Assembly (NCBI GenBank): GCA_017410365.1
Contig: JAFQQY010000016.1
Location: 1-64,000 of the forward strand
DNA: 64,000 bases
Source: Prevotella sp.
GTDB taxonomy: Bacteria > Bacteroidota > Bacteroidia > Bacteroidales > Bacteroidaceae
Reading direction: 5' to 3'
The position numbers and the translations under genes were made by a program. The stretch's first letter is position 1; the number at the start of each line of letters is the position of its first letter. Shown here one piece after another: positions 232 through 45,045 of the stretch. The notes under the pieces were generated by a model that made no database searches, was not told the DNA's origin, and saw only the letters and a list, made by a program, of their open reading frames with translations.

Positions 232-336
232 ATTTCTTCCCCACCATCGATACTTGCCTTATATTATTCATATATTTCTTCCCCACCATCGATACTTGCC
301 TTATATTATTCATATATTTCTTCCAAATCATCGATA
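232..336. repeat. 42-bp tandem repeat spanning the PBP1A stop codon
   Basis: Units starting at 232, 274 and 316 repeat with an exact 42-bp period. The first two are essentially identical. The third, which lies inside the gene's 3' end, matches at its start and around 'atcgata' and then diverges. The unit contains the last codons and the TAA stop (306-308) of the minus-strand PBP gene, so copies of the gene's tail lie downstream of the real stop, including a duplicate in-frame stop at 264-266. Confidence 0.85.
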
Positions 337-2621: not shown

Positions 2622-2729
2622 AACCGCAAAAGAAATATATAAAAATATGTTTGTACGAATTTCAAGTGCAAAATTAGGAATTTTCTCTCATATATTAAAG
2701 AAATAATATGTTTTTCTAGCATTACCTCA

Positions 2730-2759
2730 TTGACAAATCAGATTTTTTGCTTACCTTTG
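2730..2759 (+). promoter_or_regulatory. pyrB promoter
   Basis: TTG at 2730-2732 and TACCTTTG at 2752-2759 are spaced 19 bp, a near-perfect Bacteroidota -33/-7 pair. Transcription would start about 2764, roughly 30 nt before the pyrB start codon. I see no pyrimidine attenuator or leader peptide in that short leader. Confidence 0.7.
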
Positions 2760-2793
2760 AAGACGATTTCAAACCACAAACAAAATACATCAG

Positions 2794-3741
2794 ATGGAAA
2801 AACATGATTTCGTAACTATCGCAAATCTGACCAAAGAGAAAATACTCTACATGATAGAGATGGCGAAGGAGTTTGAAGAGCACCCAAACAGAGAGATTCT
2901 TAAGGGAAAGGTTGTGGCCACGCTGTTTTTCGAACCCTCTACAAGAACACGCCTGAGCTTTGAGACAGCAGCCAACCGCCTAGGAGCGCGCGTGATAGGA
3001 TTTGCAGACCCTAAGATAACGAGCGGCACCAAGGGAGAGACCCTGAAAGACACCATTTCGATGGTTGCCAACTATGCCGACGTGATAGTGATGCGCCACT
3101 TCATCGAGGGTGCAGCCCAATATGCATCTGAGGTAACAGAGGTGCCTATCGTGAACGCTGGCGACGGAGCGCACCAACACCCATCGCAGTGCATGCTAGA
3201 CCTCTATTCGATATACAAGACGCAGGGCACGCTAGACAATCTGAACATCTATCTGGTGGGCGACTTGAAGTACGGCAGAACCGTCCACTCGCTGATTATG
3301 GCCATGCGTCATTTCAACCAAACGTTCCATTTCGTGGCGCCACAAGAACTGGCCATGCCAAATGAATACAAGATGTATTGTCAGGAGCACGGCATAAAAT
3401 ATGTAGAACACACAGACTTCAACGAAGACGTGATAGCCGATGCCGACATCATATACATGACACGCGTACAGAAAGAGCGCTTCTCAGACCTCATGGAGTA
3501 CGAGCGAGTGAAGAACGTCTACATACTCAAGGCCAGCATGCTTGAAAACGCAAAGCCGAACATGAAGATACTGCACCCGCTGCCACGAGTGAACGAGATA
3601 GCCTACGACGTGGACGAGAACCCGCATGCCTACTACATACAGCAGGCTGGAAACGGACTCTTTGCCCGCGAGGCAATATTCTGCGACTGTCTGGGAATAA
3701 CACTGGACGAAGTGAAGAACGACAAAACAATAATCAGCTAA
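2794..3741 (+). CDS. pyrB: Aspartate carbamoyltransferase, catalytic subunit
   Basis: Forms N-carbamoyl-L-aspartate from carbamoyl phosphate and aspartate, the committed step of pyrimidine synthesis. The 315-residue protein shows the carbamoyl-phosphate site '[12 protein letters not shown]' (about 50-61), '[12 protein letters not shown]' and the aspartate-side 'HPLPRVNEI' near residue 267. Length is typical. The regulatory chain follows 14 bp downstream, so the product should be the allosteric class B holoenzyme (catalytic trimers joined by regulatory dimers). Confidence 0.97.
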
Positions 3742-3755
3742 CCCCCACGACTAGT

Positions 3756-4211
3756 ATGGAAAAGAACAAGATGCTTGTAGCCGCCATCCAGAACGGCACC
3801 GTCATAGACCACATACCAAGCGAAAAGACATATCAGGTGGCCACACTGCTCGAACTAGACCAGATGACCAATCCCGTCACCATAGGCTACAACCTACGCT
3901 CAAAGAAGCTTGGCAGCAAGGGAATAATAAAGATTGAAGACAAGTTCTTCAGCGACGAAGAGATAAGCCGCCTAAGCGTAGTAGCCCCAAACATAGTGCT
4001 CAACATCATACGCGACTATGAAGTTGTAGAAAAGAAAACAGCCACCACGCCCGACGTGCTGAAAGGCATTGTGAAGTGCAACAACCCAAAGTGCATCACC
4101 AACAACGAGCCGATGCTGACCATCTTCCATGCCATCGACAAGGAACAGGGAGTGCTCCGCTGCCACTACTGCGAAAAAGAGCAAGACATAAATAAAGTTG
4201 AGCTAGTCTAG
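3756..4211 (+). CDS. pyrI: Aspartate carbamoyltransferase, regulatory subunit
   Basis: 151 residues with the PyrI layout: an N-terminal nucleotide-binding allosteric domain ('[15 protein letters not shown]', '[21 protein letters not shown]') and a C-terminal zinc domain with four cysteines ('KCNNPKC' and 'RCHYCEKE') that docks on PyrB. In the family it transmits CTP/ATP feedback to PyrB. It is co-transcribed with pyrB (14-bp gap). After its stop there is a copy of an intergenic palindromic repeat (4218-4275). Confidence 0.95.
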
Positions 4212-4217
4212 GGTTTG

Positions 4218-4275
4218 GGCATTCGTCCTCTATCTTCGCCGCTGAAAGCGGCATATCTTCCTTTAACTCCTTAAT
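4218..4275. repeat. Dispersed palindromic element, unit A, inverted copy
   Basis: The reverse complement of this stretch matches the A unit of the array at 26852-27210: 'gaggacgaatgc', 'gcggcgaagata' and a perfect hairpin GCCGCT-GAA-AGCGGC (4238-4252), followed by 'cttcctttaactcc'. It lies between the pyrI stop and the glyA promoter, like other copies that sit at gene ends. Confidence 0.85.
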
Positions 4276-4318
4276 GGATTAAAGATTAAGGATTAAAGAT
4301 TAATTCAAAAAAAATTAC

Positions 4319-4326
4319 TATCTTTG
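4319..4326 (+). promoter_or_regulatory. glyA -7 promoter element
   Basis: TATCTTTG matches TAnnTTTG and is followed by GC. No convincing TTTG at the -33 position is visible. It gives a leader of about 37 nt for glyA. I looked for a glycine riboswitch in the leader and saw none. Confidence 0.5.
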
Positions 4327-4367
4327 CAGCCAAATTAAGAAAGTAAATCAAAAACTAAATAAAAACG

Positions 4368-5648
4368 ATGAAAAGAGACAACCAGATTTTTGAACTTATC
4401 GAGAAAGAACACCAGCGTCAGCTGAAGGGTATCGAACTGATAGCCAGCGAAAACTTCGTTAGCGAACAAGTGATGGAAGCCATGGGTTCATACCTTACGA
4501 ACAAGTATGCCGAAGGCTACCCAGGAAAGCGCTACTATGGCGGTTGCCAAGTAGTAGACCAAGTAGAACAGCTGGCCATAGACCGCGTATGCGAACTCTT
4601 TGGCGCTGAATACGCAAACGTACAGCCACACTCAGGAGCACAGGCCAACGCAGCCGTACTTCTGGCCGTGCTTAAGCCAGGCGACACATTCATGGGATTG
4701 AACCTTGACCACGGCGGCCATCTCAGCCACGGTTCACTCGTTAACACATCTGGTATACTATACAAGGCCGTGGGCTACAACCTCAACAAGGAAACAGGCC
4801 GCGTAGACTACGACGAAATGGAGCAGCTAGCACTCGAGCACAAGCCAAAGCTCATCATCGGCGGAGGTTCTGCATACAGCCGTGAATGGGACTACAAACG
4901 TATGCGCGAGATTGCCGACAAGGTTGGCGCACTTCTCATGATAGACATGGCACACCCAGCAGGACTCATAGCAGCAGGCCTGCTTGAAAACCCAGTAAAA
5001 TACGCACACATCGTAACCTCAACCACCCACAAGACCCTTCGCGGACCACGCGGCGGCATCATCCTCATGGGCAAGGACTTCGAAAACCCATGGGGTTACA
5101 CCACACCAAAGGGCGTAGTAAAGATGATGTCAACACTGCTCAACAGCGCCGTATTCCCAGGTCAGCAGGGCGGTCCATTGGAGCACGTCATAGCAGCCAA
5201 GGCAGTAGCCTTTGGCGAAGCCCTACAGCCAGAGTTCAAGCAGTGGGCAGAGCAAGTGCAGAAGAACGCCAAGGTATTGGCAGAAGAGCTGGTAAAGCGC
5301 GGATTCACCATCGTAAGCGGCGGCACCGACAACCACTCAATGCTCGTAGACCTCCGTTCTAAGTACCCAGAGCTTACAGGCAAGGTGGCAGAGAACGCCT
5401 TGGTAGCAGCCGACATCACCGTAAACAAGAACATGGTGCCATTCGACTCACGCAGTGCCTTCCAGACCTCAGGCATCCGCCTCGGCACACCAGCCATCAC
5501 CACACGTGGCGCTAAGGAAGACCTCATGGTAGAGATAGCAGCCTTGATAGAAGAGGTGCTCAACGACCCAGAGAACGAGGCTGTAATAAGCAGCGTGCGT
5601 GAGCGTGTTAACGAGCGCATGAAGAGCTATCCTCTGTTTGCTTATTAA
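4368..5648 (+). CDS. glyA: Serine hydroxymethyltransferase
   Basis: PLP enzyme that interconverts serine + THF and glycine + methylene-THF, the main source of one-carbon units. 426 residues, standard length. Visible motifs: 'ELIASENF' (23-30), '[15 protein letters not shown]' (46-60), '[14 protein letters not shown]', the PLP lysine in '[13 protein letters not shown]' (K222) and '[11 protein letters not shown]'. It is monocistronic with its own promoter and a strong terminator 30 bp downstream. Codon use is the G+C-richer style of the core genome, in contrast to the island that follows. Confidence 0.97.
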
Positions 5649-5676: not shown

Positions 5677-5707
5677 GAGACGTCATTATTTGGCGTCTCT
5701 TTTTTTT
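5677..5707 (+). terminator. Intrinsic terminator after glyA
   Basis: GAGACG (5677-5682) pairs with CGTCTC (5694-5699) around an A/T-rich loop, followed by a run of eight T. Confidence 0.85.
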
Positions 5708-6230
5708 GACAGGTGTACGGTTCTGACAGGAGGACATGAGGACTTTTTTTGACATAAAGACAAAAGGTTTTAAAGACAGAAAGACAGATTTTTCTTGGAT
5801 AAAAATCCTTAAAATCCCGAAATTCCTAGACATAAAGACAAAAATCCTTAGACATAAAGACACATGCAATCCTTAGAAATAAAGATACAGACAATATTTA
5901 GACATATAGAAGTCCCAAAATTTTTAAAAATCAATTTTCTCATACATCCTACATTTTTGCATGTAAGACATTAAGCCATAGAGCGTTAAGTGCAGTGTAG
6001 GAGGATTTCATTCCTACATTTTTTGCCCGTTTTTCGGTGCATTTTGGTAATTTTAACAAATTTAGGTTGTAAAGATTGGTATTTCTAAACGGCCGTTTTA
6101 GACTTCTGAAAGGGCGTTTTAGGTATCGTAAATGGGCCATTTGGGTGTCAAAAGTGATGCATTTAGGTGTGCTAACCGCACCACTTTTAGGAAAAGCCTC
6201 TCCCTCCAAATTAAAAATTTCTCGACTTTA
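5708..6230. repeat. Intergenic repeat debris with about 22-bp periodicity
   Basis: No gene is recognisable here. In 5750-5880 the motif 'tagacataaagaca' recurs at 5827 and 5849 (22 bp apart) and then degenerates. In 6091-6170 four units built around 'ggcCgttttag'/'gggccattt' recur every 21-22 bp. An open frame on the minus strand (5949-6209) is made mostly of these repeat units and I do not regard it as a gene. Similar 22-bp-period repeats occur at 31310-31375 and 62298-62341 with different unit sequences. Confidence 0.6.
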
Positions 6231-6725: not shown

Positions 6726-7052
6726 TTATATTGGCCTTCCCCTTTTACTGCCTCCTGGGTCTGGATGACCTTCAATCTTTGTATAGGTCTCATATTCACT
6801 CAAAGTATCCCTTATCCTATGTTTCTCTTCATAATACTCATCTAAGAGTTTATCAACCTCTTCCATACTGATTTCACCCTCTATATTTTTTTGAGCAAGT
6901 TCCAGCAGGTAGTCGGAGACCTTCAGACCATCCACAGCCTGCAAACCAATAGCCACGCGCCAAGCTTCAGCCCTATCTTTCTTCAGAGGATCACCCTGGC
7001 GTAAATACTCGTCAAAGTTCAAGTATAGTTCCTTATCGTTCTTTTCTCTCAT
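6726..7052 (-). CDS. VbhA/Fic-antitoxin-like small protein, orphan
   Basis: 108 residues. The core 'AWRVAIGLQAVDGLKVSDYL' followed by 'NIEGEISMEEVDKLLDEYYEE' has the helical pattern of the VbhA-type antitoxin domain that binds Fic AMP-transferases. In Bacteroidota the same domain is often fused to the N-terminus of Fic proteins. Where the canonical inhibitory motif is S/TxxxE(G/N), this protein aligns as L-Q-A-V-D-G, so the inhibitory Ser and Glu appear to be Leu and Asp. No Fic domain (HPFxxGNG) is present nearby. It may be a solitary antitoxin, a remnant of a Fic fusion, or a partner acting in trans. Recognition is from motif memory only. Confidence 0.55.
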   Translation of the reverse strand: MREKNDKELYLNFDEYLRQGDPLKKDRAEAWRVAIGLQAVDGLKVSDYLLELAQKNIEGEISMEEVDKLLDEYYEEKHRIRDTLSEYETYTKIEGHPDPGGSKRGRPI

Positions 7053-7187
7053 ATCTAGTCTTACTTTATTCTTATAATGTTTTTGTTCTGTCCTAATTTC
7101 CGTGAATCCTTATATTCGAAGTCCGTAAATCCGTAATACTTTCAGCCATCTTCAGCGGATCAAAGAACCGTCCCGTGATTCACTAAA

Positions 7188-7454
7188 TTAGCGTAATGAG
7201 TCCCGTATATTTATCCCAATTTCAGGAAATAGATTAAGTATTAATGCTAAAGCGGCAATTACGACTGCAACAATGGCCCCAAATATTTGCCAATTTGCTT
7301 TTGTTATGGTTTGGATATGTTTTTTATCCGTATCCTTTGCCTGTTTCTTCATCTCATCCATCATAGCTGTTAGGAGATTGATTTCATCATCGTAGTGCTT
7401 ATTAATGTCCTGCATAGGATTATTGTCCTGCATTTCCCTTGCAAGTTTAGCCAC
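7188..7454 (-). CDS. Small single-pass membrane protein, function unknown
   Basis: 88 residues (GTG start; an internal ATG at Met8 is an alternative). The N-terminal 50 residues are charged and likely helical ('NLLTAMMDEMKKQAKDTDKK'), followed by one hydrophobic segment 'IFGAIVAVVIAALALILNLF' (about 57-76) and a short tail. It is the last gene of the minus-strand block that includes the GIY-YIG protein, 88 bp downstream of it, so it may be co-transcribed. I do not recognise a family. Confidence 0.5.
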   Translation of the reverse strand: MAKLAREMQDNNPMQDINKHYDDEINLLTAMMDEMKKQAKDTDKKHIQTITKANWQIFGAIVAVVIAALALILNLFPEIGINIRDSLR

Positions 7455-7542
7455 TTGCTCTTTATTTAATTAATGGCCGTCATCTAAAAACCGTAATTAT
7501 TCATTTGTATTTCGTTTATTATTCACATGAGACAATATATTT

Positions 7543-10116
7543 TTACTTATCTTTATACTTCCATAAATACCCTTTATATGGTTCGCCATTTTGTATATGC
7601 TCCCACATTCGGTTCCTTGGAACATTAATAGCTTTGGCAGCAGCTGAAATTGACGGATAAGTAGCGATTTCTACTTCATCCATTAATTGTACTACTTTAC
7701 GATTTCTCAAATTGGGCCAACCATTCAATTCGTACAAGTCTATACCCCTTTTCCTACAATAGTTATCTATATCCTTCCTTGCTTTGCTTAGTTCTAGTAA
7801 ACTGCTATATGGAGCACAAATCTCCTTTATTTCATCGATGGAATATTGGTATGGTGCATGTTGTACTCTTTTCAATGGTTCCAACAAATCATTCCAATGA
7901 TTCTTTTTGATTACATTATACACGTTAGGCTCATTATTCACTAAATCTCTGAGGAATGTATATTTCCTCACGATTCTTTCACAAGCTGCTCGTGTCCACT
8001 TAGTGGTACTTCCATAACAAAAGCCCTTCAATTCCTCATGCCAGCCTTGTTTTTTTGCTATTCTGTAGATATGCGCAAAGCGATTTTTCAAATCAAAAAC
8101 GAAGGTGCATTGCTCATATACCTTCTTGCATTGTTCAAAATCAACTTCTATAATTTCTTCTTTGGGCTTTTCCGTTTTTGGAGTTTTTGTCCTTTTAGGT
8201 TTTTCTACCTTTTCACTTTTGGCTACATATTTGAAAGGTTTGGGATAACGTTCTCTTAAAAGACCAGCATCTCTTAATAAATGATAAGCTTTTTTGGAAT
8301 AGTTACTCAGTTCTTTTATGTTTTTGAAGTACTGAGATATATCCCATGCTTCTTCAACGGTCTTAATCCTACCATGCATAACAATAGTTGGTCTTAATTC
8401 GTTGAAAAGATTATTCTTTTTCAAATAGGTCCATAAAGTATGGTTCTTTAGTCTAATTATTTCTATAGACTTGTAATTGTCTGCCTCCCTTAGTGCCTCT
8501 TCCCTCGTATATTCTTTGGGTTTCCCAAAAACATCGTCGAGCATCTTATTATCGAAAAGGACTCTGTATGCCCATAAGCAATCAAATCTCAATTGGCTGC
8601 GATTTGTGTAGTGCCCCTTCTTTACTACAAGTAGTGCATCTTCAATTGTATGATGAGTATGGATGAGTCTATTGGGAAAAAGCTCATTAAGCAATCCTTT
8701 ATAACGTGTTAGTATAGCACCATATGCACCAGGATGTTGTTCCATTAATAGAGAAAGGTCATAACCACATTCTTTTGCCTTTTCTCTAATTGCCTTCTTG
8801 TTCCATTTTAATGGAAAAGATGCTCCAATAGAACTCTCACGTTCACCAGTTTTTGCCCTATTGAGTAGCATCCATTTTTGCTCCTTGTAGTATTCCACCC
8901 AAAAGGATTCTCTTTTTCCGCTTTCATGAATTGGTACGCTATCTTCTAATTGTTTAGGGGAAGGAATTTCACAATTGTATTCTTGAGCAAATTTAAAAAC
9001 GGCAGAGTCGTTACTGTGACGATGTTGCCAATCTCTTCTTATCAAACTGTTTGTCAATCCCACATATACAGCTCTTTGTTTCAAAAACTCATATGCATAG
9101 ATGTATTTTGTATCTTTATCGTAATCTGCAGTTTTAGGCGGCATTTTTCTCAACCATGTATAATCCTTTAGCCACCCCATGCGTTGGGCCATATTGCACG
9201 CGCCGCCACTTCTAACCCTAAAATCAAAAATATACTCATATTTACGTGCTTCTTGCTCGCAAGTTTCCTTGTTCCATTTTTTTGCATTACCAGAACAAGA
9301 TGGGCAACCTTGACCTTTCAAATGATTGGTTGGAATCTGCCAGAAGTCACCATGTATTGGACACACAATACACACTTTTGTGCTTGTGTTAATGTAGTTG
9401 ACTTTGTGATAATCATATATACCGCCATGAACCTTATTCGCCTCTTCAATAAACTTTTCAAGAGGCTTTCGCTGGAGCCTAATTCTATTCTCTTTGGAAC
9501 ATTTGGGGCACTCTTGATGACTTGAGAAGATATTGACAGGACGCATAGAAAACTCGCCATGCTCAACGCCATTTTCATCTTTCTCATGACAAACAAGGAT
9601 GATGGGAACCTTCATGGCCTTATATATAACCTTTTCGAAACTATAACGTTCACCAAAAAGAGAACGAATCTTATCAATTATTTCTTCTTGACTATAAATA
9701 TGTCTTTGTCTGTCACCTTTATAGGCGCATTTTGGACATCCGTGTCCATTCAAATGAATATATGGGGCCTGCCAAAACTCACCATGCTTTTTGCAGATTA
9801 TGCAAACCTTCGTTGAAGTATTTTTATACTTCACATTAGAATAGTCATACTTATCCCCATGTAATTTTCTCGCTTCATCAATAAACTGATCTAACGTTTT
9901 TCTGCGAGATTCTACATTTTTAATTTTACCACACTCAGAACACTCATGACCCTTTAAATGATCTAAAGGCCTCTGCCAAAACTCACCATGCTCTTTGCAG
10001 ATTATGCAGACTTTGGTTTGGTTGTTGACATACTCCACCTTGGAATAATCATACTTATCCCCATGCACCTCTCGGGCTTTCTTGATGAATTCTTCGGTGG
10101 TTAGCTTCTGGCTCAT
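7543..10116 (-). CDS. Large modular GIY-YIG nuclease with four zinc-ribbon modules and NUMOD-like C-terminus
   Basis: 857 residues, four kinds of module in order. (1) Four copies (about 5-65, 75-132, 140-208, 217-276) of a DUF723-like unit, roughly 'A..vHGdkYDYs.v.Y.n..tKVcIIC..HGeFwq.p..Hl.g..Cp.C', each with two Cys pairs or near-pairs that could bind zinc. Copy 3 is divergent. (2) A GIY-YIG nuclease core (337-421): KYIYAYEF, AVYVGLT, Arg360/361, a likely catalytic Glu403 in 'RESFWVEYY' and 'LLNR'. (3) Six or more degenerate 45-residue helical repeats beginning 'W(N/T)..a' (one before the nuclease at 281-325, the rest at 439-790). (4) A NUMOD1-like segment 'SISAAAKAINVPRNRMWEHI' with 'GYLWKY' (805-857). 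These parts are typical of homing-endonuclease and phage-type proteins that recognise long DNA sites. It starts 19 bp after the exonuclease gene, so an operon is likely. Substrate and role are unknown. Composition is visibly A+T-rich. Confidence 0.8.
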   Translation of the reverse strand: MSQKLTTEEFIKKAREVHGDKYDYSKVEYVNNQTKVCIICKEHGEFWQRPLDHLKGHECSECGKIKNVESRRKTLDQFIDEARKLHGDKYDYSNVKYKNTSTKVCIICKKHGEFWQAPYIHLNGHGCPKCAYKGDRQRHIYSQEEIIDKIRSLFGERYSFEKVIYKAMKVPIILVCHEKDENGVEHGEFSMRPVNIFSSHQECPKCSKENRIRLQRKPLEKFIEEANKVHGGIYDYHKVNYINTSTKVCIVCPIHGDFWQIPTNHLKGQGCPSCSGNAKKWNKETCEQEARKYEYIFDFRVRSGGACNMAQRMGWLKDYTWLRKMPPKTADYDKDTKYIYAYEFLKQRAVYVGLTNSLIRRDWQHRHSNDSAVFKFAQEYNCEIPSPKQLEDSVPIHESGKRESFWVEYYKEQKWMLLNRAKTGERESSIGASFPLKWNKKAIREKAKECGYDLSLLMEQHPGAYGAILTRYKGLLNELFPNRLIHTHHTIEDALLVVKKGHYTNRSQLRFDCLWAYRVLFDNKMLDDVFGKPKEYTREEALREADNYKSIEIIRLKNHTLWTYLKKNNLFNELRPTIVMHGRIKTVEEAWDISQYFKNIKELSNYSKKAYHLLRDAGLLRERYPKPFKYVAKSEKVEKPKRTKTPKTEKPKEEIIEVDFEQCKKVYEQCTFVFDLKNRFAHIYRIAKKQGWHEELKGFCYGSTTKWTRAACERIVRKYTFLRDLVNNEPNVYNVIKKNHWNDLLEPLKRVQHAPYQYSIDEIKEICAPYSSLLELSKARKDIDNYCRKRGIDLYELNGWPNLRNRKVVQLMDEVEIATYPSISAAAKAINVPRNRMWEHIQNGEPYKGYLWKYKDK

Positions 10117-10135
10117 AATCTGATTAAGTTATGTG

Positions 10136-12058
10136 CTAATTCTCAACTTTTGACGTTTCCCTATACGCATAATTCTCCTTTGCTGCTGCTAATTCTTCTT
10201 CGCTCAAAGGAGTATTGGAATATCTGAAGATGTAGCCATTATACTGAGGCTTGCCAGCAGATAAACATCTCCTTACACCTTCAGTTTGTATACCATACGC
10301 CACTGTGCAATCTGTTATCTTCAGAAATACATTGAGATAATTTCCGTCAAGGTCGAATACATATATAGGCCGTTTCGCCTCTTTCGTCAATGGTGCACCT
10401 TCGATTTTCAGAATTGGTTGTTCTGTTGTCGCATAAATGAAAATATAGCCATTGAGATTATATGTTATCTTGTCTTGGCGAAGTATGGTTTTTATGGGAC
10501 TATCACCAGCAAAGCCCAACTCGGTAACAATGTCGGAAATGCTCTCATACCTTTTCAAGAAATCACCATCCTTGGAATAGCAATCAATGAGCCGCTTTCC
10601 ATAGGTGAAGTCACGATCTATCTTCGTTTGTGGTTCTTCTTCATGAGCTCGGAAACCATATTCACCTAACCAACTCTTTTCTAGTGTGGCATTCGCAATC
10701 TTCTTTTGTGTTAAAGACGATGCTAATCCAGCGCATTCTTCCAATGTCTTGGTGAAAAGGAATTCACCAGTCGTTCTGGAATATACGTCAATAAGGCGTT
10801 TCCCATAATAGATATCAGGTTCTATTTTTCCTATCGAATCTTCATGCAGCCTTATGCCATAATCGGTTGTCCACAAAGTTTCCTCTAAATCTTTTACCGT
10901 AGAATATGACACATAGATTCCCTTCTCGGCACATTGCCTTATGGTTTTCGTGAACAGGAACTCACCTGTTAAGCGAGAATAAACGTCAAGTTCCAGCATG
11001 TTTTGCTCTATGTAAGACTCAAGCTTCACTCCATTTCTATAGAGATTGGAATGTATGTCATCAACAGATTTGCCAACAGGTTTTCCTTCGTTATTGAAGT
11101 AAATTTTGCGAAGCACAAAATTGGTAGCGTCACAGTCCTTTATTGCTTCATGAAAACAGCCTCCTTCAAACCCAAAATGTTCCGAAATGGTTCCCAACTT
11201 TTTGTTTTCTGTTGGCAATGCTAGTTTTCTAACCATTGCAAGAACATCGCACACAGGATTTGTCGGCAGAGGTATGTTAACCATTTCGCATGTAGATTTC
11301 AAGAATCGCATATCAAAAGGTGCATTGTATGCAAAAAGAGGACAAGTGCCTATAAACTCCATGAATGCATTGATGCCTTCCTTCTTGGAATCTCCTGTTT
11401 GCTTCAACTTTTCTATATCTATACCATTTACACGCAAAGCCGTCGGTTCTATTACACATTGAGGGGATGGTTTTATGTAGATACTTCGTGTATCTATTAC
11501 TTCCCCCGTCTGCGTGCTGTATTTGACGGCTCCAATTTGAAGAATCTCATGGCCTTGCTGAGGTGACAATCCGGAAGTCTCGGTATCAAATACAACATAG
11601 TATTCATATTTCGACAAATCAGGTATATATGACTCAATGGGTGTTTCGATGTCTGTTGGAGAGGATGAAATAATTTTAATCTCAAATCCTGAGGCTGGTG
11701 AAACATGACAGAGATCTTCTGTCTCATGCGTGTCATTGCTTAACAATTGAGACAGTTCACTTTCGGAGATATTGGCATTAACCAGCACATTAAGAGCATT
11801 ATCAATAATTCCTTTCTGCTGAAGTTGTGATATCAAACTTCCAGATAGTTTATAACCTATTTGGAAGTGTCTTTGGATATCAGCCCCCTTACATATGCCT
11901 TTTTGGATGACAAAACGAGCCACGTTCTCTAAAGATGGAGTGTTGCCTACTGGACAATAAGTGTTTGCAGACTTATCCTCAACCACGTTTGCATTCTGAT
12001 TGGTTTTTTCATTAGAATCTCCACCAAACAGACCTTTTATGAAATCAATTATCGACAT
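10136..12058 (-). CDS. DEDDh (DnaQ-like) exonuclease with winged-helix N-terminus and NUMOD-like repeats
   Basis: About 640 residues. I start it at the ATG at 12058; the in-frame TTG two codons earlier looks spurious. Residues about 45-108 ('ADIQRHFQIGYKLSGSLISQ' and 'LQQKGIID') resemble the FtsK gamma winged helix that reads short DNA motifs. Residues about 152-320 are a complete DEDDh 3'-5' exonuclease: 'VVFDTETSG' (D158, E160), 'NAPFDMRFL' (D249), 'HEAIKD' (H303, D308). The remaining 280 residues contain three to four repeats of the type 'DVYSRLTGEFLFTKTIRQCA' followed by 'GYIFRY'-like ends, related to NUMOD1 modules. The next gene, the GIY-YIG protein, shares that C-terminal type. Combination and context suggest a two-nuclease system, but function is inferred only. 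Confidence 0.8.
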   Translation of the reverse strand: MSIIDFIKGLFGGDSNEKTNQNANVVEDKSANTYCPVGNTPSLENVARFVIQKGICKGADIQRHFQIGYKLSGSLISQLQQKGIIDNALNVLVNANISESELSQLLSNDTHETEDLCHVSPASGFEIKIISSSPTDIETPIESYIPDLSKYEYYVVFDTETSGLSPQQGHEILQIGAVKYSTQTGEVIDTRSIYIKPSPQCVIEPTALRVNGIDIEKLKQTGDSKKEGINAFMEFIGTCPLFAYNAPFDMRFLKSTCEMVNIPLPTNPVCDVLAMVRKLALPTENKKLGTISEHFGFEGGCFHEAIKDCDATNFVLRKIYFNNEGKPVGKSVDDIHSNLYRNGVKLESYIEQNMLELDVYSRLTGEFLFTKTIRQCAEKGIYVSYSTVKDLEETLWTTDYGIRLHEDSIGKIEPDIYYGKRLIDVYSRTTGEFLFTKTLEECAGLASSLTQKKIANATLEKSWLGEYGFRAHEEEPQTKIDRDFTYGKRLIDCYSKDGDFLKRYESISDIVTELGFAGDSPIKTILRQDKITYNLNGYIFIYATTEQPILKIEGAPLTKEAKRPIYVFDLDGNYLNVFLKITDCTVAYGIQTEGVRRCLSAGKPQYNGYIFRYSNTPLSEEELAAAKENYAYRETSKVEN

Positions 12059-12178
12059 ATACAACCTATTATCGTTTTTATTAATTCGACTGTGTACTCA
12101 AGGATTTTTCCCATCTCCGAACAATCTACGAGCCATCTTCGAAGGCATAAGCTTGCATCAACCCATGCTCACTCTATG

Positions 12179-12379
12179 CTACATGCGTAAAAGTTCATTG
12201 ACATTAATTTCTAAGCATCTTGCTATCTCCATCAGGTTCTCCAAGTTGGGTTGTGCACTATTGGTACACCATTTGGACACCGTGGCTTGGTCAACGCCTA
12301 TTTGCTCGGCTAACCACTTGTTGGTGCGCTTCTTCTCCGCAAGTACCACTTTCAGTCGGTTTAAATCTTTACCTTCCAT
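12179..12379 (-). CDS. Small Xre-family HTH regulator
   Basis: 66 residues, almost entirely a Cro/CI-type helix-turn-helix: 'LAEQIGVDQATVSKWCTN' (recognition helix) followed by 'PNLENLMEIARCLEINVNEL'. It is the first gene of the minus-strand block and probably controls its own promoter (CATCTTTG at 12414-12407) and the exonuclease/GIY-YIG genes that start 120 bp downstream. The size is that of phage-repressor-like regulators of toxin-antitoxin and defence loci. Confidence 0.8.
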   Translation of the reverse strand: MEGKDLNRLKVVLAEKKRTNKWLAEQIGVDQATVSKWCTNSAQPNLENLMEIARCLEINVNELLRM

Positions 12380-12704
12380 GTTATACGTTATTACATAATA
12401 CTGGGTACAAAGATGGCAATTTTTTATCAGAAATGATTATGTTTTGCTAAAAATATGTGCACAGAGGCAAAAATATTTGTCTTTTAACAAATTCTCGCTT
12501 CAAATTATCAATACCATCATTATACTTAAACACAATTGATGTGTCTTTTATGAGGCAAATTTTATAGTCGTAAAAATTTACAGCCATAAAATTTCATAAA
12601 GAGGTCCTATGAAGATGTACTCATCGATTGTTAATCGACAAAATTGCAGGTATCTATAGAAAAAAGCCCCCAAAAGAGTAGCCTAAACAGATTATTTGAT
12701 AAAA
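12380..12704. other. A+T-rich divergent intergenic region with a palindrome
   Basis: No gene is visible in this region between the xre gene and hipB. It contains a perfect palindrome TCGATT-gtt-AATCGA at 12624-12638, which could be an operator or a small hairpin, and otherwise only A+T-rich sequence. Confidence 0.5.
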
Positions 12705-12738
12705 TGTTTGTTATATTAAACATTTTTATATATATTTG
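12705..12738 (+). promoter_or_regulatory. hipBA promoter with overlapping inverted repeat
   Basis: TTTG at 12707-12710 and TATATTTG at 12731-12738 are 20 bp apart, a full Bacteroidota promoter. TGTTT (12705-12709) and AAACA (12718-12722) form an inverted repeat covering the -33 box and spacer, a plausible binding site for the HipB-like repressor encoded immediately downstream. Confidence 0.65.
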
Positions 12739-12757
12739 CACCCGATAAGATACAATT

Positions 12758-13057
12758 ATGGGAAAGAATACATTCGGTAAAACGATGCCAAGGGCATTGA
12801 GCCAGAACCTAAAAATCATGGGCGAGCAAATCATGTTGGCCCGCAAGCGTAGGCATCTGTCTATGCAGGATATTGCAGACAGAGCTACGGTGACACGACT
12901 GACTGTCTCAAAGGTTGAACATGGTGACCCAACGGTTTCTATGGGTATCTATGCGCGTGTACTCTTTGCACTTAATTTGGAAAAGGATATCACCCTGTTG
13001 GCTGCTGACGACGCTCTTGGCAGACAGCTTCAGGATGCAGAATTACTAAGAAAATGA
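12758..13057 (+). CDS. HipB-type antitoxin / Xre repressor
   Basis: 99 residues. The HTH 'MQDIADRATVTRLTVSKVEH' followed by 'DPTVSMGIYARVLFALNLEK' is the standard Xre fold of HipB-like antitoxins. Its stop overlaps the start of the HipA-type kinase by 4 bp (ATGA, 13054-13057), the usual arrangement of these pairs. It should neutralise the kinase and repress the promoter at 12705-12738. The N-terminal extension (about 25 residues) before the HTH is longer than in E. coli HipB. Confidence 0.85.
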   Translation: MGKNTFGKTMPRALSQNLKIMGEQIMLARKRRHLSMQDIADRATVTRLTVSKVEHGDPTVSMGIYARVLFALNLEKDITLLAADDALGRQLQDAELLRK

Positions 13058-14304
13058 AGAGGATTACAGTTTACGCAGATTTTGACTTTCTCTCTGCTCC
13101 ACAGGAGGTTGGAACTTTAGGCTACGAACACGTTCGCGGCAAGGACCATTTTGTCTTTGAGTATTCGCGCCAGTGGTTGAAACAGCATGGCGGCATTCTG
13201 CTGAGCGGTGACTTGATGAATGTTCCTTCGTTGCAGCATCCTCGTGGTAATGATAATGTATTTGGTTTCGTCAAGGATTCTTTCCCCGATCGTTGGGGAC
13301 GTTTATTGCTTGACCGCAGAGAGCGACTGACTGCTCAACAGGAAGGTAGGCCGAAACGAATGCTCACTAATTACGACTATCTCATAGGGATTGAAGACTT
13401 TACGCGCATGGGTGGCATACGTTACAAAGAGGAAGAAGGTGATGACTACATCAACGCGAGTGCAAAATATCTTGTTCCCCCTATTGAGAGTCTTCGCGCC
13501 CTATGCGATGCTTGCCATGAGATTGAGTTGGCAGAGGAGCGTAATGAATTACCGGAACAACGCTGGCTCGACCAGTTGATTGATCCGGGAACCTCACTCG
13601 GTGGTGCTCGCCCTAAGGCCAACGTGGTTGATACTGACGGAAAACTGTACGTGGCAAAGTTCCCATCAAAAAAGGATCTGGAGAATACTGAATTTATTGA
13701 GCACTTCTCGCATCAACTTGCGGCAAAGGCAGGTATCAACGTGGCAAAGACGCGCACCATCAAGATTTCAAAAGACCGTGACTTGCTTCTTTCTGAACGC
13801 TTCGATAGAACAGCAGAGGGCCGTCGCATTCATTTTGCTTCCGCTATGTCGTTGCTTGGTCTTGATGATGGAGCTGGCAGCAGCACAGGTAACGGCTATC
13901 TTGACATCGTTGATTTCATCCTTCGTGGGTGTACCAATGTACGGCAGAATCTCCGTGAGCTCTATCGCAGAGTGGCCTTCAACGTCATGTTTGGCAACAC
14001 CGATGACCACTTCCGTAATCATGGATTCCTGCTCACTCCAAAAGGCTGGACACTATCGCCTGCATACGACATCAATCCAGGAGCGAAGTCACATCAATGC
14101 TTGCTTATTGACTCATACACAGAAGAGTCAGACATCAACGCGTTACTCTCTGCAAGTGAAAGCTACATGCTTGAACACCAAGAAGCATCAGAGATTATTA
14201 AGGAGGTTCGTGCTGCCATCAAAGACTGGCGCAAGACCGCTACTGAACAGCAAATACCCGCAAAGTTGTTAGAATCATATTCTATACGTTGGGATGAACT
14301 ATAA
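13054..14304 (+). CDS. HipA-type serine/threonine kinase toxin
   Basis: 416 residues, a full-length HipA-like kinase. It carries the N-terminal domain ('VFGFVKDSFPDRWGRLLLDR'), the glycine-rich nucleotide loop 'DPGTSLGGARPK' (178-188; Ser181 is the likely autophosphorylation position by analogy), 'LYVAKFPS' and the catalytic stretch 'NTDDHFRNHGFL' (315-326), then 'AYDINPG'. In E. coli the homologue phosphorylates glutamyl-tRNA synthetase and causes dormancy; other HipA proteins use other tRNA synthetases, so the target here is open. All catalytic residues appear present, so the toxin looks intact. It lies in the accessory island, divergent from the xre gene. Confidence 0.85.
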   Translation: MKRITVYADFDFLSAPQEVGTLGYEHVRGKDHFVFEYSRQWLKQHGGILLSGDLMNVPSLQHPRGNDNVFGFVKDSFPDRWGRLLLDRRERLTAQQEGRPKRMLTNYDYLIGIEDFTRMGGIRYKEEEGDDYINASAKYLVPPIESLRALCDACHEIELAEERNELPEQRWLDQLIDPGTSLGGARPKANVVDTDGKLYVAKFPSKKDLENTEFIEHFSHQLAAKAGINVAKTRTIKISKDRDLLLSERFDRTAEGRRIHFASAMSLLGLDDGAGSSTGNGYLDIVDFILRGCTNVRQNLRELYRRVAFNVMFGNTDDHFRNHGFLLTPKGWTLSPAYDINPGAKSHQCLLIDSYTEESDINALLSASESYMLEHQEASEIIKEVRAAIKDWRKTATEQQIPAKLLESYSIRWDEL

Positions 14305-14547
14305 AAAAGTAGCACATTCTGCACGTTTTCCGTGAAAAAATACCTTCAGACGAGAAATTCTCAAATCGAGCAAAAAGGCGCGGTACAAGTCAAAACGGCA
14401 AGGTGTTAATTATCAAGCATTTACACTTTCGCTTACTTTCAAAAAACTTTCGAAAAATAGCCATGTACCGATTAAATTCACTGAACGCTGATATTCAATT
14501 GATTGTCGATGGTGCATCGGAAAATTTGTCTTTATGTCAAATAATAA
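14305..14547. other. Intergenic region after hipA without a supported gene
   Basis: A+T-rich sequence between two gene ends. An open frame on the plus strand (14403-14753) runs through the terminator and the GH51 coding region and is not credible. I see nothing else here. Confidence 0.5.
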
Positions 14548-14569
14548 GGGCAGACCAACAGATCTGCCC
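14548..14569 (-). terminator. Hairpin between hipA and the GH51 gene
   Basis: GGGCAGA (14548-14554) pairs with TCTGCCC (14563-14569). On the minus strand it is followed by a T-rich stretch (TTATTATTT), so it probably ends the GH51 transcript and may also serve hipA. Just after it, 'gtactcatgtctaaa' occurs twice (14591-14622). Confidence 0.6.
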
Positions 14570-14618
14570 ACTATTATATAAAAGTCCTCATGTACTCATG
14601 TCTAAAACGTACTCATGT

Positions 14619-17225
14619 CTAAAGACTGATAACCCAGAAGCTATAAGGCGGCATGGTGATGGCCGAAGCATCGGTTATTTCGCCTGTCTCCAACTTAACA
14701 CGCTGCTGACCTGGCTTGCCCGCGAAACCTTGCCATTTCATTGTGGCGGATGACGGAGTGATGCCACTGAGCGAGAAGCTTACTTCTACAGGCGATACGT
14801 TGGCTATCTTCAAGTATTGCTTACCAGTCTTGCTGTCTCTTACCACACTTGCAGCCAAACGGTTTTGGAGTGAGGAGTTTGGAGTGAGGAGTGAGGAGTG
14901 AGGAGTTTGGAGTGAGGAGTTAGGGGTTAGGAGTTCTACGGCGGTAGACAGGTATGTGTCGCCACTATAGTTGCCGAACAGCCATTGTGTCCAGTAACTT
15001 GGTGTCTTATCTACATGGTGATTGTCGAAGTACATCATGTCGGGACTCCAGTTGCTATGGCCGTTCTTTGACAGCAGCGGTGCATAGCTTGTCATGGTTA
15101 CGACGTCGGCGTTTCGCTCAATGCTACAGAGATAGGCAGCCTCGGCAAGTGCACAGTCAACCCCACCCTTGCCCACTCTAACTGCATACTCGCCAAGATA
15201 TACCTTTGGCGCCGTGCGGTCGTAGTTGTCGTAGTAGTCTTGATTGTTGAGGAACCAGCCCACGCTTTCGTAGTAGTGCTCATCCACCATGTCGAACACG
15301 TCGCGATGTTTGTTGGCAAACTTCCAACCCTCAATGTAGTCGCTGCTTGGGTAGTGGAAAGGACCAACCGTTCCGCAGACCTCAATGTCTGGATATTTCT
15401 CTTTAATGGCCTTGCTAATCATTAGGCATCGCTCTTCGAAAACGGTTGAAAGCAAGTCTTCATTGCCCACGCCTATATACTTGAGGTTGAAAGGCTTAGG
15501 ATGCCCCGCATCTGCCCTCATCTTAGCCCACTTGCTAGTGGCTGGGTCGCCGTTTGCCCATTCTATCAAATCAAGGAACTCTTGGATATACGCAGGCATG
15601 TCTTCCATAGGAATACCGCCCTGCTGACCGCCATAGCCATGTTCGTCGGGACCTGAGTTTTGGCATGGCACTCCAGCCGCAAGCACTGGCAGCGGTTCTG
15701 CACCTATGTCTTCGCAGAACTGGAAGTACTCGTAGAAACCTAGTCCGCGCGTCTGATGATAGTTCCAGATGTTTCGGTCTGGCGTTCTTTCGTGAAGCGG
15801 TCCTACGGTGTGTTGCCAGTGGTATATGTTTTCAAGTCCGTCGCCATGCGTCATGCATCCGCCTGGGAATCTTACGAATCGTGGTTTCAAATCGGCTATG
15901 GCCTGAGCAATATCCTTTCTTAGTCCGTTCTTATGGTTGTGGAATGTTTCTTGCGGGAAGAGGCTAATCATATCCATTGCCACGCTGCCCTTGCCTTCGG
16001 TGATGAGCATGAACTGTGCTGCCTTGCTACTGGCATTTGCCTTCAGCGTGGTCTGATATTGCTTCCATTCGCCTATTTTGCCCTTTGTCTTTATCTGTGT
16101 CTGTGCGAGCACGTTGTTTCCATCTACCAGAGCCACAGTGAGTTTCTTGCTCTTCACGTCTTTTGGGCTAAGCCATAGCGAGAAGTCGTAGAGCGCACCT
16201 TGGTCAACGCGTATGCCATCCCATCCCGAGTTGTAGATAGTATCGGCGGCAGCCACCACGATATGGTGCTTGTTAACGAGACTAAGAGGGTTGTCGGTAG
16301 CGAGCGTCATGTGTCCCTTAGCCGAGCGCCATGCAAAGAGCGGTCCCCACTGCTTGTCTCTGCCTTCGCCTTTACGATATTCGAAGTCGCGGTTCTGAAT
16401 GAGTTCGGCATAAAGTCCTCCATCGGCGGCATAGCTAATGTCTTCGAAGAACACGCCAATGAGCTTGTCGCTAATCTTCTTCTGCTGCTGCGGATTAACG
16501 TTTATCCTTGCTTTCAGTTGCTTGCCCATGATGCTTTCGAAGCGCTTTGGGTCGTCTCTTAGCGACTCGGCATTCTCCTTGTTGAACTCATCAATCATCT
16601 TGAAGTGGTCGAAGATATGGTCGGCTGGCTTTTGGGTCGAGAACGTGTAACCCTCGTATTTCTTTCCGTCTACAACTGCCGTTTCTATCTTCTGCCTGCA
16701 TGTCGTGTAGTAGTCATGCTTATCTTTAGAAGCCTCTACGTCGGGCGTGAAATGGCGGAAGTCATGGTTGGTGGTGGTTTGGCGCACCTTGCCGTCCTTG
16801 GTCTTGAACAGCACCACATACTGGTCCTTCTCATCGTCATAGTAGACAACTGGCGCTATACAAGTGGTTGACATGCGCGGATAGTCTTGCGGTCGCCACG
16901 TAACTAAATCGTCGCTTACGGCAACGGCAAAGCATGGGCTGTAGTCGTTAACCTGAAACACAGCAACGAAGCCGCCCTTTTTTCTTTGAATCATCATAGG
17001 AGAGTACATCTTCTTCTCGCTGCCCCATCGAGAGTAGTCGCTGGAGAAGAGCTGCCCTAAGTGCTTGTATGTGCTGTCCGTATCAGCATAGGCCAAATGA
17101 TAGCCATGAGCGGGACCAGGTGAATAGTGGAAAAACTTAACGGATTTGCTATCCTCGGCATTGACCAGCGTAGCCATAGCCAGCGATGCAAGGAGCATGG
17201 TTGCCTTATTTCTGTAGTTTATCAT
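14619..17225 (-). CDS. GH51 alpha-L-arabinofuranosidase with N-terminal GH43-like segment
   Basis: 868 residues with signal peptide 'MLLASLAMATLVNA'. Residues about 30-210 look like a partial five-bladed propeller segment ('LFSSDYSRWGSEKKMYSPMM', 'VAVSDDLVTW'), common at the front of Bacteroidota GH51 enzymes. The GH51 barrel follows, with 'PRFVRFPGGCMTHGDGLENI', the acid/base glutamate in 'YIGVGNED' (near 588) and the nucleophile in 'YLGEYAVR' (near 679). It should remove arabinose side chains from arabinan or arabinoxylan in the periplasm. Near residues 763-786 it carries an in-frame low-complexity insert (LTPNSSLQ repeats) encoded by a GGAGT-rich intergenic-type repeat. A TAACTTTG box lies at 17274-17267. 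The divergent regulator next door probably controls it. Confidence 0.88.
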   Translation of the reverse strand: MINYRNKATMLLASLAMATLVNAEDSKSVKFFHYSPGPAHGYHLAYADTDSTYKHLGQLFSSDYSRWGSEKKMYSPMMIQRKKGGFVAVFQVNDYSPCFAVAVSDDLVTWRPQDYPRMSTTCIAPVVYYDDEKDQYVVLFKTKDGKVRQTTTNHDFRHFTPDVEASKDKHDYYTTCRQKIETAVVDGKKYEGYTFSTQKPADHIFDHFKMIDEFNKENAESLRDDPKRFESIMGKQLKARINVNPQQQKKISDKLIGVFFEDISYAADGGLYAELIQNRDFEYRKGEGRDKQWGPLFAWRSAKGHMTLATDNPLSLVNKHHIVVAAADTIYNSGWDGIRVDQGALYDFSLWLSPKDVKSKKLTVALVDGNNVLAQTQIKTKGKIGEWKQYQTTLKANASSKAAQFMLITEGKGSVAMDMISLFPQETFHNHKNGLRKDIAQAIADLKPRFVRFPGGCMTHGDGLENIYHWQHTVGPLHERTPDRNIWNYHQTRGLGFYEYFQFCEDIGAEPLPVLAAGVPCQNSGPDEHGYGGQQGGIPMEDMPAYIQEFLDLIEWANGDPATSKWAKMRADAGHPKPFNLKYIGVGNEDLLSTVFEERCLMISKAIKEKYPDIEVCGTVGPFHYPSSDYIEGWKFANKHRDVFDMVDEHYYESVGWFLNNQDYYDNYDRTAPKVYLGEYAVRVGKGGVDCALAEAAYLCSIERNADVVTMTSYAPLLSKNGHSNWSPDMMYFDNHHVDKTPSYWTQWLFGNYSGDTYLSTAVELLTPNSSLQTPHSSLLTPNSSLQNRLAASVVRDSKTGKQYLKIANVSPVEVSFSLSGITPSSATMKWQGFAGKPGQQRVKLETGEITDASAITMPPYSFWVISL
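14868..14937. repeat. GGAGT-rich repeat inserted in frame in the GH51 gene
   Basis: About 70 bp of repeated 'ggagtgagga'/'ggagtttgga' units, encoding LTPNSSLQ-type repeats on the minus strand. Such purine-rich units are otherwise seen in the intergenic arrays of this window (compare 'ggagttaagaaggagttaga' at 26922-27180). The reading frame stays open on both sides. Confidence 0.8.
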
Positions 17226-17426
17226 TTTAGAAAAACAATTATAATTAGTAGTTCAATATATTCTTGCAAAGTTATAGCAATTATGACGAAAACACAAGAA
17301 ACGGGCGGTTAATCATTGTTAACTGACAGTAAAACACAACTTTTTCGCATAAATGCTTTTCTATTTGAAAATAAATGGTTAACTTTACACAAACTTTAAA
17401 TTAATGCAAATTAATAATATAAAACT

Positions 17427-44971: not shown

Positions 44972-45045
44972 GGTGCGTTAGTTCAGTTGGTTAGAATGCC
45001 TGCCTGTCACGCAGGAGGTCACGGGTTCGAGTCCCGTACGCACCG
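44972..45045 (+). tRNA. tRNA-Asp (anticodon GTC)
   Basis: Cloverleaf by eye: acceptor GGTGCGT (44972-44978) with ACGCACC (45038-45044) and discriminator G. The anticodon arm CTGC-CTGTCAC-GCAG gives anticodon GTC, and the T arm is ACGGG-TTCGAGT-CCCGT. CCA is not encoded. 74 nt. Confidence 0.97.

Follow-up and report, generated by a model that had tools for sequence, protein, structure and literature searches.

Do two unlike nuclease genes that lie 19 bp apart on a Prevotella chromosome work as a pair, and if so against what? The question is raised by a stretch of 64,000 nucleotides from Prevotella sp. (assembly GCA_017410365.1, contig JAFQQY010000016.1, positions 1 to 64,000; hereafter the window), which carries a gene for a DEDDh exonuclease (EXO) followed by a gene for a GIY-YIG protein (GIY). 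A first-pass annotation had described four adjacent genes at 7188-12379, for an Xre regulator, EXO, GIY and a small membrane protein, as a candidate two-nuclease system. All four are present at those coordinates on the minus strand, and GIY does start 19 bp past the EXO stop. As set out below, the pairing of EXO with GIY holds up without being obligate, and of the two it is GIY that is exchanged. Judged from sequence, the two genes may form an accessory module of defence-type islands in Prevotella-type bacteria, with a constant exonuclease and an exchangeable endonuclease, a tentative reading to which we give somewhat less than an even chance. A constant EXO beside a replaced nuclease suggests either that foreign DNA is attacked with a retargetable weapon or that the nucleases form a mobile cluster. 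The pair and its joint comprise the following features, each with the evidence that defines it:

10136..12064, minus strand: EXO, with a winged helix, a DEDDh exonuclease domain and NUMOD1-like repeats (Pfam, PADLOC, alignments)
10117..10135, minus strand: the 19-bp spacer between EXO and GIY (DNA comparison of loci)
10027..10116, minus strand: the conserved head of GIY, its first 30 codons (drop in DNA identity afterwards)
7543..10116, minus strand: GIY, with treble clefs, a GIY-YIG domain, repeats and a NUMOD1-like end (Pfam, alignment profile, residues)

EXO is found in 5 of 398 genomes of the genus at E<=1e-20, its own genome counted. Against 399 genomes of the family 188 match at E<=0.001, and among the matches listed none besides its own is better than 4e-13; the listed matches are to the exonuclease domain or, in a few cases, to the winged helix, and a close EXO is present in its own genome alone. 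A search of 393 genomes of the order at 1e-12 returned the own EXO plus a single match (residues 152-319, in an 845-amino-acid frame), and nothing like the EXO architecture past the catalytic domain. Scanning a collection of 84,980 species genomes with six EXO peptide patterns, an exact-peptide method that may miss relatives, gave 18 candidates, seven of them true loci (L087-L093); by coordinates, four of these are the four non-own matches in the genus. Among 199 relatives of genome G716 there were three matches, none of them new. Eight distinct EXO loci are thereby available, counting the window, of which L001 is the same locus, and the seven others encode proteins 83-89% identical to the window EXO over nearly their full length. 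An origin of EXO in phages or plasmids was rejected, as neither holds a relative with 80% coverage; viral contigs likewise hold no full-length relative, their matches being centred on the exonuclease domain.

Across these loci EXO is under purifying selection, with a mean ratio of nonsynonymous to synonymous substitution rates (dN/dS) of 0.135; the NUMOD part evolves slowest (0.081) and the N-terminal 150 residues fastest (0.281). EXO is conserved yet occurs in different genomic places. Its DNA is 0.83-0.96 identical between loci that sit at largely non-homologous sites, the known carriers being close kin, and the flanks (3 kb upstream, 5 kb downstream) are mostly non-homologous. The exceptions are 1.9 kb upstream of EXO shared by L087 and L089, about 0.2 kb upstream of EXO common to L087, L089, L092 and L091 (the end of an HNH gene), 1.2 kb of the GIY gene, in which L089 and L092 are 69% identical, the VbhA region common to the window and L089, and short pieces shared with L093. 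Judged by eye, the genes beside EXO are presumably of parC/gyrA type in L087; the neighbour in L090 is presumably ispG, and that in L091 a DNA ligase region.

The adjacency of EXO and GIY is more than chance. A GIY-YIG gene lies directly downstream of EXO in five of the eight loci, and four of the five share one inherited joint: in the window, L087, L089 and L092 a gene beginning MSQKLTTEEF starts exactly 19 bp past EXO, and the spacer is identical in all four. The annotation had proposed counting how often the two genes adjoin; EXO is indeed usually followed by a GIY-YIG gene, but GIY genes are usually found without EXO. The other EXO loci differ at this point. L088 retains a spacer of 0.95 identity and the first codons of the head, with a stop after 20 codons (a GIY stump); L090 keeps the spacer (0.84), followed by a RhuM gene; L091 has other open reading frames (ORFs) behind EXO; and in L093 a GIY-YIG gene of another make, with no treble-clef head, begins 76 bp past EXO.

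Among the four loci with the shared joint the mean pairwise DNA identity (ungapped) is 1.00 in the bin that covers the EXO stop codon and the spacer, and 0.972 across GIY codons 1-30. It then falls to about 0.6 and is down to 0.3-0.4 near codon 63, insertions and deletions explaining part of the drop. Identity at the level of the head is not unique, being equalled by 70 of 612 90-nt windows within EXO. The head also occurs apart from EXO: four EXO-unlinked genes share 75-92% of 72 nt of it, an exact match is present in one viral contig, and, with three mismatches allowed, a pattern of the head was found in 6 of the 200 genus genomes searched, being linked to EXO in two of these (the own genome and G429, the source of L087). 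A further mark is the codon of the conserved glycine, which is GGG in 17 of 21 modules classed as first modules (one, in L133, being internal by position) versus 7 of 20 other modules, against a GGG background of 0.11 in long ORFs of the loci; the modules compared come from related rows. We infer that the head is the usual crossover point.

Behind this joint the GIY body has been replaced at least twice, by alleles that are also found without EXO. Three body types share the one joint. The other EXO-linked GIY proteins are 29, 33, 29 and 24% identical to that of the window; among themselves, L089 and L092 are 62% identical, L093 is 42-47% identical to both, and L087 is 22-33% identical to the rest. 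A tree was built of 19 GIY-YIG domains, five EXO-linked and 14 EXO-free, the long-branched L024 and partial domains such as L020 being excluded; it extends by five loci an earlier 15-row tree that also left out partial domains such as L020. The EXO-free status of nine rows comes from stretches of at least 9 kb, and that of five from stretches of about 3 kb or less plus a genome-wide search. The window groups with EXO-free L094 (genome G383) and L132 (genome G556) at 100/99, L089 and L092 group with EXO-free L096 and L131 at 96/98, L093 falls in the wider fork around these, and L087 lies elsewhere. A tree that unites the EXO-linked domains in one clade is rejected, its log-likelihood being 172 lower (p-AU 5e-50 in the approximately unbiased test). 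On supported branches the label of EXO linkage changes at least four times (at least three in the 15-row tree), and 178 of 500 shuffles of the label gave a value as low, so that it shows no clustering beyond theirs.

What kind of proteins are joined in this way? EXO comprises an FtsK-gamma-like winged helix (residues 44-89), a DEDDh exonuclease domain (157-314) and a NUMOD1-like array (about 355-617). Pfam recognises RNase_T (8e-23) and FtsK_gamma (1.2e-7), both above cut-off, and NUMOD1 at 0.0046, below it; NUMOD1 is also backed by TIGR01453 (below cut-off), phrog_20162 and PADLOC homing-endonuclease models. In the array about four stretches of about 56 residues self-align, the first two sharing 50% identity and the rest aligning weakly; these first two are recognised solely by their mutual alignment. 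The catalytic domain is nearest to DnaQ/PolC exonucleases, and D160, E162, D251, H305 and D310, whose catalytic roles we assume from DnaQ, are invariant in all eight loci. PADLOC models match through the exonuclease domain and the NUMOD-like part, including CRISPR-associated DEDDh and candidate PDC-S48 models; the row for MTase_II is insignificant (E 0.011). Six of the seven relatives use an ATG two codons downstream of the start annotated in the window. Upstream of EXO in L091 (1606-3765) lies a protein with DUF4236, FtsK_gamma and AAA parts, the FtsK_gamma part of which weakly resembles the winged helix of EXO.

GIY carries four treble-clef (cysteine-pair) modules in residues 1-275, a GIY-YIG domain at about 336-432, further repeats and a NUMOD1-like end at 816-841. 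Pfam matches DUF4379 above cut-off (8.7e-6) and NUMOD1 below it (0.019), and gives no GIY-YIG match at E<=0.1 in the window protein. That domain is identified through relatives, in which Pfam GIY-YIG scores 1.3e-4 (L093, at cut-off), 0.009 (L094) and 0.024 (L089, both below), and an alignment profile that includes the window finds it in GIY at E 1.3e-45. Residues of catalytic type are present (Y340, Y351, R361, H365, E403, N419), with roles that we take to be those of I-TevI. CapR and DUF723 occur in the GIY protein of L087 (Pfam). Relatives of GIY occur in 25 of 399 family genomes, and the listed matches outside G383 and its own genome are to parts of the protein only. Kin of the body are found in L094 (72%) and L132 (74%), both without EXO in the stretch examined. 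Among phage records 735 of 50,697 match, the 20 matches listed reaching residues 1-441 at most, chiefly in the repeats.

The annotation had held that both nucleases end in NUMOD1-like modules and had inferred a pair with shared targeting modules. Such modules are indeed present in both, at Pfam scores below cut-off. The array of EXO is its most constant part and the linked GIY proteins are diverse, so that a common recognition site is unlikely, and shared targeting by both arrays was rejected on this ground. What stands of the proposed defence or mobile-DNA system is a recurrent pair near genes of defence and toxin-antitoxin type.

Nuclease genes also lie upstream of EXO. L092 encodes an intact 286-amino-acid protein (7088-7948) with an HNH motif, seen by eye, that has no significant Pfam or PADLOC match; it has no match in phages and one full-length relative, at 35%, in viral contigs (L135). 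The gene is decayed in L087, L089 and L091 (94 amino acids in L087 and L089). In L088 the end of a YhcG nuclease, below the Pfam cut-off, lies upstream of EXO, its sequence ending at the contig edge. Both flanking nucleases are intact in one of the eight EXO loci (L092); in the window a single flank of EXO carries a nuclease. A similar layout is found without EXO in L132, which carries in order an Xre gene (93% to that of L089), an AlbA_2/ATPase gene of the family seen in L089, though the two share only 29% over 184 residues, and an HNH remnant of 57 residues (93%). A GIY gene follows 13 bp past the stop of the remnant, and its product is 74% identical to the window GIY over its whole length. 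DNA on the HNH side of L132 matches L087, L089 and L092 at 89-92% and that on the GIY side at 75-93%, with EXO absent between them.

The setting of the pair in the window is made up of the following further features:

12179..12379, minus strand: Xre-type helix-turn-helix regulator, 66 amino acids (Pfam HTH_26 4.9e-11)
7188..7454, minus strand: 88-amino-acid ORF with a GTG start and one hydrophobic segment (matched only itself)
6726..7052, minus strand: VbhA-like remnant of a one-chain VbhA-Fic protein (match in L089; Pfam VbhA 5.3e-5, just under cut-off)
12758..14304, plus strand: hipB-hipA pair, a divergent neighbour (hipB from 12758, hipA from 13054; Pfam HipA_C 1.2e-48)

The block is A+T-rich, as the annotation had noted: the G+C content of 7188-12379 is 0.380, compared with 0.483 at 306-5648, 0.477 at 13054-20417 and 0.447 in the window overall. 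Its Xre protein is 58% identical over 60 amino acids to those of Xre genes adjoining AlbA_2-type genes in L089, L097 and L132, and 42% over 31 amino acids to that of L087. The small membrane ORF has no relative among 143 sequences compared, matching only itself (window, L001). It is probably incidental to the pair; the four-gene system was dropped on this account, and the actual block is Xre, EXO and GIY. As for the boundaries of an island, no recombinase was matched by Pfam among the seven proteins at 6726-14304, where the profile search was made, and the sole tRNA of the window sits at 44972. Inverted clusters of a short repeat (core GACATAAAGACAAA) at 5691-5887 and 14525-14636 bracket the whole accessory segment (5.7-14.6 kb). 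They were rejected as module ends: the genome contains 16 exact copies of the core, against 0 of a reversed control, and near-copies occur in only two of the seven other EXO loci. Elsewhere, such clusters flank both sides of a pair resembling AbiEi/AbiEii by eye (L143) or lie in a single orientation (L145, L146).

Neighbouring genes were scanned with Pfam and PADLOC for chosen proteins. They include AbiH, VbhA-Fic and Schlafen/AlbA_2 genes in L089 and an Apea-like HEPN gene and a Fic fragment in L087. L090 has RhuM and L093 BRO-N/RhuM; L091 encodes an AAA protein that PADLOC models match weakly, L088 a small protein that is its second with RNase_T, and the window hipBA and the VbhA remnant. 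Three neighbours tested in L092 gave no defence call, and the compared flanks of L087-L093 hold no hipA or hipB. The VbhA-like ORF had been called an orphan Fic antitoxin. Its likeness to VbhA holds, but it is 67.5% identical to residues 1-77 of the 399-amino-acid VbhA-Fic protein of L089 (12832-14031; PADLOC candidate PDC-S72 at 7.7e-128) and is therefore probably a truncated remnant of such a one-chain protein rather than a standalone antitoxin; no Fic part was found in the window, and the corresponding stretch of L087 lies at 13808-14608. Genes of unknown family lie behind some GIY bodies. One, of about 252 amino acids and 77% identical between the two loci, follows the GIY-YIG gene in EXO-free L130 (5478-8689) and EXO-linked L093 (9994-13196), and a different one (231-247 amino acids) does so in L096 and L097, with a shorter ORF, similar by eye, in L131. 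These are possible partner or immunity genes of the GIY bodies.

Several described systems resemble parts of this arrangement. T5orf172/GIY-YIG homing endonucleases with CapR, DUF723 and DUF4379 zinc-finger repeats have been reported (Barth, Dunham and Seed, 2023; PMC10448857), and homing endonuclease gene (HEG) islands are described there in which flanking nucleases are proposed to spread a conserved cargo gene of phages. GIY has the R, E and N residues of the GIY-YIG domain, DUF4379-type modules and modular exchange, and by its domains fits this family as a putative member. Both share repeated zinc-finger modules with a GIY-YIG domain and the swapping of domains between alleles at repeated DNA (PMC10448857). 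GIY differs from those phage nucleases in its setting, a bacterial chromosome where it follows a conserved exonuclease gene, and homing by it would be a prediction. With the islands described in the same source the loci share nucleases flanking a conserved cargo found in different places, but EXO is a rare exonuclease in chromosomal accessory DNA and not an essential phage module. Odn, a chimeric nuclease of phage ICP1, confers sequence-specific immunity to a phage (PMC8263062) and belongs to the T5orf172 class (PMC10448857). It too is a nuclease with a swapped DNA-binding part that attacks a rival element by sequence; it is, however, a phage gene directed against satellites, and the abstract names no exonuclease partner (PMC8263062). 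SNIPE likewise sets a GIY-YIG nuclease against phage DNA, but is one protein with a transmembrane segment, DUF4041 and GIY-YIG (PMC13190303); GIY has no DUF4041 match, and the hydrophobic segment here sits in the separate, unconserved 88-amino-acid ORF. DnaQ/PolC-type exonucleases share the catalytic domain and five catalytic residues of EXO, which adds a winged helix and a NUMOD array. The system had been put forward as undescribed, and this holds in part: GIY matches the homing-endonuclease-like phage family (PMC10448857), and the pair itself was unmatched in the literature searched. In these searches of open-licence PubMed Central papers neither the architecture of EXO, with winged helix, DEDDh domain and NUMOD array, nor its pairing with exchanged GIY-YIG genes was found.

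How might a defence module of this kind act? The treble clefs, further repeats and NUMOD1 of GIY would read a long DNA site, GIY would cut incoming phage or mobile DNA bearing that site, and EXO would then degrade the cut DNA from its ends. Host DNA free of the long site would escape self-damage, so that no methyltransferase would be needed; Pfam matches none among the seven proteins at 6726-14304. A swap of the GIY body would alter the target and retarget the pair. The most specific version is a modification-free restriction, in which EXO binds DNA as the constant part and endonuclease bodies are swapped at a docking joint, the DNA-conserved 3' end of EXO with the 19-bp spacer and the first 30 GIY codons, so that recombination would yield new anti-phage specificities for long sites, much as in the exchange of a specificity subunit. 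This version is doubtful. For the broader defence reading count the presence of EXO under purifying selection in eight loci of largely non-homologous surroundings; the GIY-YIG gene downstream in five of eight and the stump in a sixth, with near-identical spacer and head and differing bodies; linked GIY-YIG domains that are not one clade; other endonucleases upstream (HNH motif, YhcG end); neighbours such as AbiH, HEPN, Fic/VbhA, Schlafen/AlbA_2, RhuM/BRO and, in the window, hipBA; and the precedent of Odn immunity (PMC8263062). Other observations weigh against it. EXO is intact in L090 and L091 with no GIY relative in the flanks examined, and GIY is intact without EXO in L132 and L094, so that neither needs the other, which makes the case for an obligate two-component system weaker. 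Bodies of the L092 type are found in seven viral contigs too, as expected of ordinary homing genes, and GIY drew no match from the PADLOC models (0 families at E<=0.1). The defence-like character of the neighbourhood is descriptive, and the seven other EXO records, all from uncultured organisms or metagenome-assembled genomes and four of them of the genus of the window, are a narrow sample.

The main rival, and a strong one with a modest chance of being right, sees the HNH genes upstream and the GIY-YIG genes downstream as selfish homing endonucleases that carry EXO along as their cargo, after the model put forward for phages. It explains turnover, decay and bracketing: EXO of L092 sits between intact HNH-motif and GIY-YIG genes, nuclease decay is frequent (HNH remnants in L087, L089, L091 and L132, the GIY stump in L088), EXO is conserved as DNA in different places, L132 is an EXO-free island of similar layout, and relatives of GIY are common in phages and found in viral contigs, where the L092-type bodies fit as well; such islands and nucleases are moreover described (PMC10448857). 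However, the largely non-homologous sites offer little flanking homology for classical homing, they lie near toxin-antitoxin and defence-type genes, both flanking nucleases are intact in L092 alone, and the rare EXO is, unlike phage cargo, not an essential gene. The defence reading better accounts for the chromosomal setting and the neighbours, and both can be true if homing nucleases were domesticated. Mere co-residence of independent single-gene defence or mobile genes in a common insertion hotspot, their joint inherited without joint function, is unlikely. The occurrence of each gene intact alone would fit it, as would RhuM in the same joint in L090; the exact 19-bp joint, however, was retained in four loci through at least two body replacements, and a GIY-YIG gene follows EXO in L093 also, at 76 bp and without the treble-clef head. 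Least probable by far is that EXO is a DnaQ/PolC-like exonuclease of repair or replication, directed to host sites by its NUMOD array and unrelated to GIY, despite its catalytic domain and FtsK-gamma-like winged helix; a gene so patchy (5 of 398 genomes) and lodged in accessory DNA is not a housekeeping factor.

If the defence reading is true, homing-type endonucleases would serve in these bacteria as exchangeable, sequence-reading immune parts around a fixed exonuclease, with no methylation for self-protection, and there would be a reason why such nuclease genes persist in bacterial chromosomes. The alleles would form a natural set for learning the DNA code of treble-clef arrays, and the question of selfish or domesticated nucleases would become testable through natural alleles with or without EXO.

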